Part shown: in pieces, positions 21,997 through 25,973 of the stretch
Position numbering within the stretch: the stretch's first letter is position 1
Layout of the letters: each line of letters begins with the position of its first letter
DNA from: a virus
Reading direction: 5' to 3' (one strand)
Virus record (IMG/VR): IMGVR_UViG_3300009703_000076
Location: 1 to 29,187 of that record
DNA: 29,187 nucleotides
Translations under genes and position numbers: made by a program
The notes under the pieces: model-generated
Database searches by the model: none
What the model saw: the letters and a program-made list of their open reading frames with translations, nothing else
Told to the model about the DNA's origin: nothing

Positions 21997-22113
21997 ATGA
22001 AGATAGTTACGCAGACACGGGAACAAGACGGGCATACATGGGTAGCACTCATAAATGCCGAAACGGGTGACATACTCGCTGAACTAATCACACCCACAAT
22101 AACAACTCGGTAG
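21997..22113 (+). CDS. Small protein, paralogue of the gene at 19642
   Basis: 38 codons, MKIVTQTREQDGHTWVALIN then AETGDILAELITPTITTR. AGGAGG precedes the ATG. It aligns with the 56-residue protein at 19642 through T-W, A-x-TG and LAE-L, but lacks its C-terminal ~16 residues. Its TAG stop (22111-22113) is bases 3-5 of palindrome copy 4. It is the first gene of unit C. Function unknown. Confidence 0.6.
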   Translation: MKIVTQTREQDGHTWVALINAETGDILAELITPTITTR

Positions 22114-22126
22114 TACACGTACTACC
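22109..22126. promoter_or_regulatory. 18-bp palindrome, copy 4
   Basis: GGTAGTAC-AC-GTACTACC. It overlaps the stop codon of the 38-codon gene and is followed after AAAC by the AGGAGAAC ribosome site of the next gene. Confidence 0.8.
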
Positions 22127-22143
22127 AAACAGGAGAACATAAA

Positions 22144-23136
22144 ATGAGTAACGAAGATCAGTTAGCGGTAGAAAAACGTGCTTATAACTTCTTTGATAAA
22201 AAGACCAACGAAGAGATAGATGCCGAGATGAATAAGAAACTTGGTATACTTGAACCAGCACCAAAGCTGGAAACGCCTACGCTCTCAGGTGCGGCTATGA
22301 ATGTCGAGCTATCTATTAGTCAGTGGACTGGTAGGAAAAAAGATCGTACAGCGTCCAAAGAAGTTACCACCAATAACAATGCCGAAACCGGTGTAGCTAG
22401 TGTCCATAAAATGCTGTTGGGCAAGTGTCTTGAACTGAAGGCCATACATGACCTGACGGGCCTGATACGCAACGAACACTATGCTATGACAATGCCGTGG
22501 TTGGATACGGGGTTGCGGCTGTTACCTACTAAGATGTTTTTCTCTTATCAGAAACACATGACCGAGCGCGAGACGCAGTGGCATGACCTGACCCACGCCT
22601 TCCTTGATGTGTACCAATACGCCATATCACAGGCACAGGCGAAACTTGGCAGTTTGTTCTATCAGGCCGAGTATCCCACACCGGACGCACTCGCACGTAA
22701 GTTCCGGTTTTCTATCAACTACCTCCCGCTACCCGAACAGGGTGACTTTCGTTTGGATGTGACCGCCAACACCAACACCGATTTGGCTACTCACTACGAT
22801 ACGTTCTATCGGGAGCGTCTGGAGAACTCGTACAAAGAAGTCTGGACGAGATTGTTTAAGATACTTGAGCGTATGTCTAGTCGTCTGGACTATGCAGACA
22901 CAGAGGACAAGAAGGTATTTCGGGACAGCCTCGTTGAGAATGTCCTAGAGATGATTGAGTTGTTGGAGCAGTTCAACGTGTCCAACAACAGTCAGATGTC
23001 ATCCGCTAGACTAGCACTTGAGGAAGCTATGTATGGCGTGACACCTGATGCGTTACGTGAGGATGAATATCTGCGGAGCGAAACGAAACGCAAAGTGGAT
23101 GAGATCATCAAGACATTACCCACTTTGGATATTTAG
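22144..23136 (+). CDS. Unknown 330-residue helical protein, partner of the MoxR/VWA genes (DUF3150-like?)
   Basis: Soluble, mostly helical: a charged N-terminus, then FFSYQKHMTERETQWHDLTH, LDVYQYAISQAQAKLGSLFY, a short beta-like part FRFSINYLPLPEQGDFRLDV (~residues 184-205), and a long helical C-terminus (KEVWTRLFKILERMSSRLDY, VENVLEMIELLEQFN). The layout recalls DUF3150 proteins, which I associate with MoxR ATPase and VWA genes in phages and plasmids; a profile search is needed. It has palindromes at both ends and the GGAGAAC leader shared with the next genes. It may be an adaptor for the ATPase. Confidence 0.6.
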   Translation: MSNEDQLAVEKRAYNFFDKKTNEEIDAEMNKKLGILEPAPKLETPTLSGAAMNVELSISQWTGRKKDRTASKEVTTNNNAETGVASVHKMLLGKCLELKAIHDLTGLIRNEHYAMTMPWLDTGLRLLPTKMFFSYQKHMTERETQWHDLTHAFLDVYQYAISQAQAKLGSLFYQAEYPTPDALARKFRFSINYLPLPEQGDFRLDVTANTNTDLATHYDTFYRERLENSYKEVWTRLFKILERMSSRLDYADTEDKKVFRDSLVENVLEMIELLEQFNVSNNSQMSSARLALEEAMYGVTPDALREDEYLRSETKRKVDEIIKTLPTLDI

Positions 23137-23153
23137 GTAGTACGTGTACTACC
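23136..23153. promoter_or_regulatory. 18-bp palindrome, copy 5
   Basis: GGTAGTAC-GT-GTACTACC. Its first G is the last base of the TAG stop of the 330-residue gene; the AGGAGAAC site of the ATPase gene follows 15 bases later. Confidence 0.8.
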
Positions 23154-23181
23154 AATAACTCGTTTATAGGAGAACGAAAAA

Positions 23182-24298: not shown

Positions 24299-24305
24299 AA
24301 ATTTA

Positions 24306-24344
24306 GGGGTGGGGTATTAATACCGGCGGAAAGTCACCCACCCC
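24306..24344 (+). promoter_or_regulatory. RNA hairpin before the VWA gene
   Basis: GGGGTGGG (24306-24313) pairs with CCCACCCC (24337-24344). The loop includes the perfect 12-bp palindrome GGTATTAATACC (24313-24324). The AAGGAGAAC ribosome site follows six bases later. It has no T tract, so it could set VWA expression relative to the ATPase or protect the message. Confidence 0.5.
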
Positions 24345-24360
24345 CAAAAAGGAGAACAAA

Positions 24361-25551
24361 ATGTTAGCACTAGGGAAAGAGTTGAATGTCGAGCAACGGC
24401 TAACCAAGGCCGTTGTCGATATCATGGGTCACGAAAGGTATGTGGCTCTCGCTGGTATTCTTATGATTGGTGATAGGAAGATAGAGGATGATTGCCCTAC
24501 CGCCTATACCAATGGTAGGGATGAAGGGTATGGCAGGGAGTTTGTGGGCAGAGTTTCAGACCCAGAACTACGATTTGTCGTACTCCATGAGAACTACCAC
24601 AAGTTGTATAAACATCTTAAAACGTGGAAGCACTTGTGTGAGGAAGATCCACAGTTGGCAAATATATCTATGGATTTTGTTATCAACCTAAAAATTGTTG
24701 ATGATAATAAGCACGATGGGTTTGCTGTCGCACCCTCTAGCGCACTTGTGGACGAGCGGTTTCGTGGTATGGATACCGCCCAAGTCTTTAATACACTGAA
24801 AAAAGAAGGCGGTGGCGGTGGTTCTTCCTTTGACTATCACGATTGGGAAGGTGCCAAGGAACTATCCGATCAGGAAAAGCGCGAACTGGATCAGGAAGTG
24901 GATGAGGCTATCCGACAGGGTGCGTTGATGGCTGGTAAACTGGGTAAGGGTGATCCGCGTGAGATGCAGGATTTGCTCACACCACAGGTAGATTACAGGG
25001 AAGTGTTGCGTGAGTTCGTTTGCACTCACTGTGCAGGTAAGGATTACTCTACCTATCGAAGTCCGAACCGCAGGTATATGGAAGCCTATACAGACCATGA
25101 CATCTTTATGCCAGATAGTCTCTCGGAAAGTATCGACGGGGTAGTAGTCGCGGCGGATATGTCAGGGTCCATAGGTGATGCTGAACAACGTGTTATCGTG
25201 AGTGAGGCCAAGGGTTGCTTTGATACAGTGAAGCCATCGTGGGTTCATATGCTGTATTGGACAACACGTGTGGAACGTGACGAGAAGTACACACTGGAGG
25301 AACTAGACGATTTCGCTAGAACAACCAGACCTAGCGGCGGTGGTGGTACGGATGTTGAGTGTGTGCCGCCGTATATGAAAGATAAAGATATCAATCCGCA
25401 AGCGGCTATCGTTTTGACAGACGGGGATTTGTATAGCGGTTGGGGTAAGTGGGATTGCCCTGTGTTGTGGGTAGTCGTCAACAACAAAGGGGCGAAGCCT
25501 CCATCAGGCGTAGTCCTTCACGTTACTTCTGACCAATTGCTGAGGGGGTAG
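24361..25551 (+). CDS. VWA-domain protein with HExxH motif (DUF2201-like), MoxR partner
   Basis: 396 residues. The N-terminal domain carries HENYH (76-80) in RFVVLHENYHKLYKHLKTWK, a zinc-peptidase-type HExxH motif. A Gly/acidic linker (~148-190, GGGGGSS, many Asp/Glu) leads to a VWA domain (~255-395) with an intact metal site: DMSGS (266-270), T330 in GGGGTD, and D354 in VLTDGD. This two-part layout matches the DUF2201 family (metallopeptidase-like N-terminus plus VWA-like C-terminus). It should pair with the MoxR ATPase upstream. Substrate unknown; a protease or an inactive substrate receptor are both possible. Confidence 0.8.
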   Translation: MLALGKELNVEQRLTKAVVDIMGHERYVALAGILMIGDRKIEDDCPTAYTNGRDEGYGREFVGRVSDPELRFVVLHENYHKLYKHLKTWKHLCEEDPQLANISMDFVINLKIVDDNKHDGFAVAPSSALVDERFRGMDTAQVFNTLKKEGGGGGSSFDYHDWEGAKELSDQEKRELDQEVDEAIRQGALMAGKLGKGDPREMQDLLTPQVDYREVLREFVCTHCAGKDYSTYRSPNRRYMEAYTDHDIFMPDSLSESIDGVVVAADMSGSIGDAEQRVIVSEAKGCFDTVKPSWVHMLYWTTRVERDEKYTLEELDDFARTTRPSGGGGTDVECVPPYMKDKDINPQAAIVLTDGDLYSGWGKWDCPVLWVVVNNKGAKPPSGVVLHVTSDQLLRG

Positions 25552-25553
25552 TG

Positions 25554-25973
25554 ATGTTATCTACTATAACTTGTTTAGCTGTAGCTATCTATTTTGAGGC
25601 TAGATCTGAACCGATAGCCGGACAGTTGGCGGTAGCGCAAGTCGTACTCAACCGAGTAGCGGATGAGCGTTACCCCGACACAGTGTGTGATGTTATTACG
25701 GAGGGGCCAACCTACCCTTCCGGTCACCCTGTACGTGACAAATGTCAATTCTCTTTCTGGTGTGATGGGAAGCCAGAGGACATCCACGATTATGAGGCGT
25801 GGCAAACGGCGATACGTGTCGCCACTATAGCTACCGAAACCACTGCCCCTCCCATCGACATATCAGAGGGCGCAATGTTCTACCATGCTACTAACGTGTC
25901 ACCATCATGGCGGCATACTATGCACATGACTGCCCGAATTGGACAGCATATCTTTTATAGATTGGAGGATTAA
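25554..25973 (+). CDS. SleB-type cell-wall hydrolase
   Basis: 139 residues from the ATG at 25554, with GAGGGGG five bases upstream; the in-frame GTG at 25551 overlaps the previous stop. IYFEARSEPIAGQLAVAQVV (E15 the likely catalytic acid), LNRV, then CQFSFWCDGK and an end with AMFYHATNVSPSW are hallmarks of the Hydrolase_2 (SleB/CwlJ) lytic transglycosylase-like fold that cuts peptidoglycan. No export signal or binding domain is visible, so release would need a holin or similar. It is tightly linked to the VWA gene rather than to the structural genes, so it is expressed early or under unit C control. Confidence 0.82.
   Translation: MLSTITCLAVAIYFEARSEPIAGQLAVAQVVLNRVADERYPDTVCDVITEGPTYPSGHPVRDKCQFSFWCDGKPEDIHDYEAWQTAIRVATIATETTAPPIDISEGAMFYHATNVSPSWRHTMHMTARIGQHIFYRLED

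Follow-up and report, generated by a model that had tools for sequence, protein, structure and literature searches.

We analysed a virus record from IMG/VR, IMGVR_UViG_3300009703_000076, over its whole length of 29,187 bp (hereafter the window), with attention to a set of adjoining genes that includes an AAA+ ATPase and a protein with both a zincin and a VWA domain. Structural genes, including the terminase large subunit TerL (16534-18090), portal and major head protein, occupy the left part of the window on the minus strand. The nearest relatives of this TerL were those of HTVC023P-type pelagiphages, DSL-LC04 and MinM2, at 40-46% identity. On the opposite strand, the genes of interest follow one another in this order:

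21997..22113, plus strand: small open reading frame (ORF) of 38 aa with a ribosome-binding site (RBS); putative gene, read from the sequence as the first cistron of the unit
22144..23136, plus strand: P1, 330 aa, a remote DUF3150-family protein with the motif W61-T-G-R-K65
23182..24282, plus strand: MoxR-class AAA+ ATPase, 366 aa (PHROG 1297, N4 gp24 family)
24361..25551, plus strand: zincin-VWA protein, 396 aa, DUF2201_N plus DUF2201 (PHROG 1314, N4 gp25 family)
25551..25973, plus strand: SleB-type cell wall hydrolase (Hydrolase_2), 140 aa; its start overlaps the VWA stop; accessory, outside the core module

An earlier reading made from the letters alone (the sequence-only reading) had described P1, an intact ATPase and the VWA protein in this order, followed by the hydrolase. 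All four ORFs were indeed present on the plus strand, and the first three genes are intact. The 38-aa ORF ahead of them may also be a real small gene. We refer to P1, the ATPase and the VWA gene as the trio.

The trio is a conserved unit, and its linkage is far above chance. Searching IMG/VR with P1 alone recovered 80 virus loci, and every locus with enough flanking sequence carried the ATPase and VWA genes beside P1; the exceptions stopped at a contig edge. We also sampled by TerL, blind to the trio: all 14 virus contigs that extend 8.5 kb or more upstream of TerL contained the full trio (one was a metagenome-assembled genome (MAG) contig found via P1, and the others came from the TerL search). 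P1 and VWA were likewise found by whole-record searches in ten near-complete IMG/VR genomes and in MinM2. The order was P1-ATPase-VWA in most relatives, ATPase-P1-VWA in L011, L013, L014, L094, L095 and MinM2, and ATPase-VWA-P1 in L015, and the set remained together despite these differences. Protein distances were correlated beyond the TerL distances (partial r of 0.75 for ATPase-VWA, 0.62 for P1-VWA and 0.48 for P1-ATPase), which supports co-evolution of the three proteins, with linkage as a confounder. The three-gene grouping proposed from the window thus held across relatives. The hydrolase, which had been counted in the same module, is of the predicted SleB type (Hydrolase_2, 2.4e-26 in Pfam) but was present in 15 loci only, adjoining the trio in the nearest clade only and with some copies at a distance. 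We therefore rejected it as a module part and treat it as a nearest-clade accessory.

We then characterised the VWA protein. Two Pfam domains exceeded their cut-offs, DUF2201_N, a putative metallopeptidase domain (1.5e-15, 58 bits), and DUF2201, a VWA-like domain (3.9e-14, 53 bits), and PHROG 1314 matched the protein at 7e-70. The HExxH motif is H76-E77-N-Y-H80, and the metal ion-dependent adhesion site (MIDAS) is formed by D266-S268-S270/T330/D354. The residues H76, E77, H80, N101, D105, N109, D158, D266, S268, S270, T330 and D354 did not vary between this lineage, MinM2, an N4-like phage, phage G and a PA5oct-type phage. In the structure model (predicted local distance difference test, pLDDT, 80), helix 67-83 contains HExxH and the helix after it, 97-115, contains D105, which makes D105 a candidate third zinc ligand. 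A fold search of the PDB with this model matched the VWA domain alone, with the MDN1 MIDAS among the matches. The claim of an intact zincin and VWA partner was thus sustained, and metallopeptidase activity is probable from the sequence. The name "HNH endonuclease", which is the PHROG label of family 1314, was rejected, as the DUF2201 domains matched and no HNH model did in the Pfam search. Many GenBank and RefSeq phage records give gp25-type zincin-VWA proteins this name, which seems to derive from the PHROG label. In one relative (L130, G009), the VWA gene was split across two frames, possibly as a disrupted copy or an assembly error.

The ATPase has a Walker A motif GHMGTGKS with K39, a Walker B pair D105-E106 and a sensor 1 residue N143. 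Among 33 aligned proteins, G33, G36, G38, K39, D105, E106, N143 and R160/R227 were invariant. The family profile matched Midasin/Rea1 best in the PDB (4.5e-23), with NorQ and the MoxR protein 2r44 lower and RavA absent among the best 60 matches, and PHROG 1297 matched the window protein at 1e-44. Taken alone, the window ATPase scored 17.4 bits with Pfam AAA_5, under the cut-off of 22. These profile matches place the ATPase in the MoxR/helix-2-insert clade, in agreement with the MoxR-like assignment of the sequence-only reading. Neither outcome that this reading had named as refuting it, an ATPase outside the MoxR group or a lack of conserved linkage among the three genes, was observed. The residues it had singled out for mutation (K39 here, and E77 and D266 in the VWA protein) are at the positions it gave and are invariant or nearly so among relatives. 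As the zincin, MIDAS and ATPase residues are all invariant, the corresponding activities appear to be under selection.

An AAA+ ATPase with a VWA partner is also the general architecture of cobaltochelatase CobS/CobT, and such phage pairs have been published as cobST, with cobT said to be mistaken for a peptidase (PMC8651126). On that account, the pair would boost cobalamin synthesis with a CobN borrowed from the host. The curated CobS model scored 17 bits against a cut-off of 558, and the CobT model gave no match. HExxH, which is invariant in the phage VWA family, was found in 0 of 15 genuine CobT proteins. Neither CobN nor a ribonucleotide reductase large subunit was found in 14 relatives, although the host could supply CobN. 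Together, these results make the cobalamin reading very improbable. HExxH thus offers an easy way to tell the protease-type partner from cobaltochelatase, and it undercuts the use of these genes as cobalamin auxiliary metabolic genes.

P1, for which DUF3150 had been suggested, gave no direct match in Pfam, NCBIfam, PADLOC models or PDB sequences. The window protein did not reach the curated cut-off of DUF3150 (PF11348), and a homologue in a MAG contig scored 22.3, under the cut-off of 24.9. When the P1 family was compared with six bacterial DUF3150 proteins by hhalign, the match was 93.7% (1.9e-7), with a common motif W[ST]GRK. In Foldseek, the structure model of P1 (pLDDT 84; predicted template modelling score 0.73) matched a phage protein that bears the name DUF3150 (E 6e-19, TM 0.68/0.75); further phage proteins matched with TM up to 0.84. 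Considering the hhalign and Foldseek results and the gene neighbourhood, P1 is a remote homologue of DUF3150 proteins, so that the suggestion stands as remote homology and not as a match over the curated cut-off. Among the papers searched, none dealt with DUF3150. Among 84,980 species genomes, P1 homologues occurred at two loci, both MAG contigs with the whole trio and one also with a phage terminase; P1 therefore looks like a phage family.

DUF3150 connects the trio to bacterial mobile elements. A VWA protein with CobT-like matches lay near the DUF3150 gene in five of six bacterial loci, and an AAA_5-type ATPase was confirmed in three by Pfam and in a fourth by the ATPase profile. A MIDAS motif and an HExxH at about residue 60 were present in each of these five VWA proteins and also in the VWA protein of an IncC plasmid. 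DUF3150 was carried by 1168 of 72,556 plasmids, 978 of which were conjugative. On the IncC plasmid, DUF3150 follows ssb-bet-exo, with the ATPase a few genes upstream, and on a Vibrio plasmid the order is ssb-bet-exo-ATPase-hypothetical-DUF3150-hypothetical-VWA-radC. Judged by profiles and motifs, the three-gene module spans phages and virion-less conjugative plasmids.

This distribution bears on a proposal made for jumbo phages, in which a "MoxR-vWA-metallopeptidase" pair would take part in assembling virions, with processing by proteolysis (Iyer et al. 2021, PMC7824862). Such a chaperone with a processing protease was proposed by analogy with the ATV p618/p892 MoxR-VWA pair, which acts in tail development (PMC4124505), and HExxH could process structural proteins. 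However, the module also occurs on plasmids that make no virions, and the trio and the structural genes are encoded on opposite strands. Moreover, whole-record searches of the sister phages HTVC023P, HTVC027P, 023Pt_psg01 and DSL-LC04 found neither P1 nor VWA, although these phages have a homologous terminase and homologous capsid genes. The plasmid copies and the absence from sister phages argue against a general role in virion assembly, which we regard as distinctly unlikely for the trio; a role of this kind in one lineage may still be compatible with both observations.

We next examined the sequences around the trio for regulatory elements. The following features were found (the repeats carry no strand):

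21887..21915, plus strand: sigma-70 promoter-like site, TTGACA-17-TATACT with TG, 11/12 consensus matches, the best in the region
21490..21829: iteron-like array on the 5' side of the trio promoter; AATGTTC/GAACATT occurs 11 times, in both orientations, within ~340 bp
22109..22126: inverted repeat GGTAGTACACGTACTACC, 5' of the P1 RBS; RNA fold -8.4 kcal/mol, z -3.2
23136..23153: inverted repeat GGTAGTACGTGTACTACC, between P1 and the ATPase
24282-24298: degenerate copy of the inverted repeat, GTTAGTCACGTACTAAC
about 21385, 21447, 21962, 26104 and 28207: further copies of the inverted repeat, seven in all over window positions 21385-28224

Many relatives likewise have TTGACA/TATAAT-like sites immediately 5' of P1. 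The number of sigma-70-like sites in the region was not above that in shuffled sequences, so the argument for a promoter draws on position and quality and not on number.

The inverted repeats are a property of each genome. Most related genomes have their own repeat of 15-18 nt in 4-11 copies, compared with 1-2 at most in shuffles, and 2 of 32 had none. The copies sit mostly 5' of start codons (relatives L011-L091), and all 162 copies examined were on the non-structural side of TerL. In near-complete genomes, they were restricted to a stretch of about 8 kb that includes the trio, for example 19.7-27.4 kb in G001 (trio at 21.1-24.7) and 23.0-31.1 kb in G003 (trio at 25.1-28.4). The palindromes that the sequence-only reading had assigned to the module are thus borne out as genome-specific repeats confined to the trio region. 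The two window copies 5' of RBSs folded at -8.3 to -8.4 kcal/mol with z about -3. The arms vary between genomes yet keep their symmetry, and within one genome the spacer varies by a base or two. This pattern fits an RNA hairpin better than a dimer operator. The repeats could represent a fast-evolving RNA regulatory code.

The array of AATGTTC/GAACATT is a candidate replication origin or regulator array. The window contains 14 copies where about 4 are expected, and 15 of 17 relatives have the array ahead of P1, most of them with at least 8 copies. One form of the remodelling interpretation developed below is a replication or recombination factor, which would remodel complexes at this adjoining origin candidate or on single-stranded DNA. 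Its support comes from the neighbourhood: besides the array, several unrelated elements have DNA-metabolism genes next to the trio or pair (N4 gp37/gp39-like genes or DNA polymerase, primase, ssb-bet-exo-radC). No clear DNA-replication genes adjoin the jumbo-phage and vequintavirus copies, and we consider this narrower form possible but doubtful.

Several other repeats were observed in the window. Near-identical terminator-like hairpins (GGGGGGCTTCGGCCCCCC) occur at 19604-19649 and 19826-19871, each immediately ahead of an RBS. At 19328-19399 and 20489-20560, a 72-nt repeat with 90% identity lies 5' of two units. Two adjoining ORFs at 27078-28203 share similar C-terminal motifs, GWRVSETMFYVVQ and GRRIDENTFWVVQP, and are perhaps paralogues or a frame-shifted duplication, to judge from these motifs. 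At 2401-2987 and 3579-4166, the structural region contains a 197-nt direct repeat with 82% identity and 66-nt repeats in six copies.

The sequence-only reading had also suggested a takeover or anti-defence machine. In a counter-defence or takeover role, the complex would pull apart or cleave a host immune or regulatory complex. The trio lies in a non-structural region with a host-type promoter-like site, is common to phages and conjugative plasmids, which face the same host defences, and is missing from sister phages, as accessory functions would be. However, when the locus was searched for known anti-phage defence systems, PADLOC gave weak P-loop matches only. The trio also did not correspond to the VMAP/vWA-MoxR ternary conflict system, as the bpMoxR model scored 13.4 bits against 27 with the window ATPase and P1 matched no PADLOC model. 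No defence neighbours were seen, and in N4-like phages the pair is core and not accessory (PMC4193335). With nothing in these searches pointing to a defence target, the anti-defence suggestion gained no direct support, and we consider a counter-defence role unlikely.

The interpretation that we prefer, with a probability of roughly 0.5, is a remodeller driven by ATP and coupled to a protease, which would act early on a complex of the host or of the element. A host-type sigma-70 promoter probably directs transcription of the unit in early or mid infection. The MoxR-class ATPase, presumably a hexamer, would supply force, and the zincin-VWA protein would be its partner, with the MIDAS holding an acidic residue of a substrate or linker protein. 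The N-terminal HExxH domain would then cut the loosened substrate. P1 would be the third subunit, most likely an adaptor or scaffold that fixes the target. Such a machine would most likely act on a host or element nucleoprotein or enzyme complex during takeover or DNA replication and not on the virion.

Several observations weigh against this interpretation. The zincin domain had no fold match in the PDB search with the VWA model, and the fold search of the PDB with P1 gave nothing significant. No homologue of P1 or DUF3150 was found beside the pairs of N4-like, phage G or PA5oct-type phages, so P1 may be dispensable or replaced there. Early expression was read from a single line of evidence, the consensus match of the promoter-like site. 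Deleting bet, exo, s067, s068 or s070 from SXT/R391 cuts transfer by no more than 10-fold, and s067, s068 and s070 have IncA/C orthologues (PMC2791158). Judging from gene order, these three genes would be the trio, whose loss would then cost transfer no more than this.

A broader version of the remodeller interpretation, which we put forward only tentatively, is a widespread and hitherto unrecognised three-subunit mobile-DNA machine of marine phages and broad-host-range conjugative plasmids, which would dismantle or cut a common host complex on cell entry and, in the present lineage, would be under a fast-evolving, genome-specific RNA hairpin code. With the link of P1/DUF3150 to the pair and the finding of the trio on IncC-type plasmids, what looked like a peculiarity of phages becomes a general machine of mobile elements, whose role is testable.

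Finally, we compared the trio with known systems. RavA-ViaA, NorQ-NorD, CbbQ-CbbO and Rea1/Midasin likewise use an AAA+ protein of the same clade with a VWA/MIDAS partner. To our knowledge, these systems have neither a metallopeptidase domain nor a DUF3150 partner. The closest phage counterpart is the gp24/gp25 pair of N4 (Schitoviridae), to which PHROG 1297 and 1314 correspond via the Ab09 annotation: the ATPase and zincin-VWA protein are homologous, and their order and active residues are alike. N4 belongs to another phage lineage, however, and no P1 or DUF3150 was detected beside its pair. The gp24 and gp25 genes belong to the core set of 25 N4-like phages (PMC4193335), and the pair is reported to be frequent in other tailed viruses; a CRISPRi-ART paper contained no N4 gp24/gp25 data that we could find. 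Published labels for the pair conflict ("HNH endonuclease", "cobT", "peptidase" and "vWFA"). The jumbo-phage pair has the same domain pairing as the window proteins, and a P1-like third component and plasmid relatives are unmentioned in the part of that account considered here (PMC7824862). IncC and other MOBH plasmids combine DUF3150, an AAA_5/CbbQ-type ATPase and a CobT-like VWA protein, the same three functional parts as in the phage. Their VWA proteins differ in being longer (551-731 aa) and in matching CobT/VWA Pfam models and not DUF2201, and their block is linked to ssb-bet-exo. The ATPase/VWA pair itself is therefore already known; what is new is P1 as a third component, the trio layout shared with plasmids, and the HExxH test against CobT.

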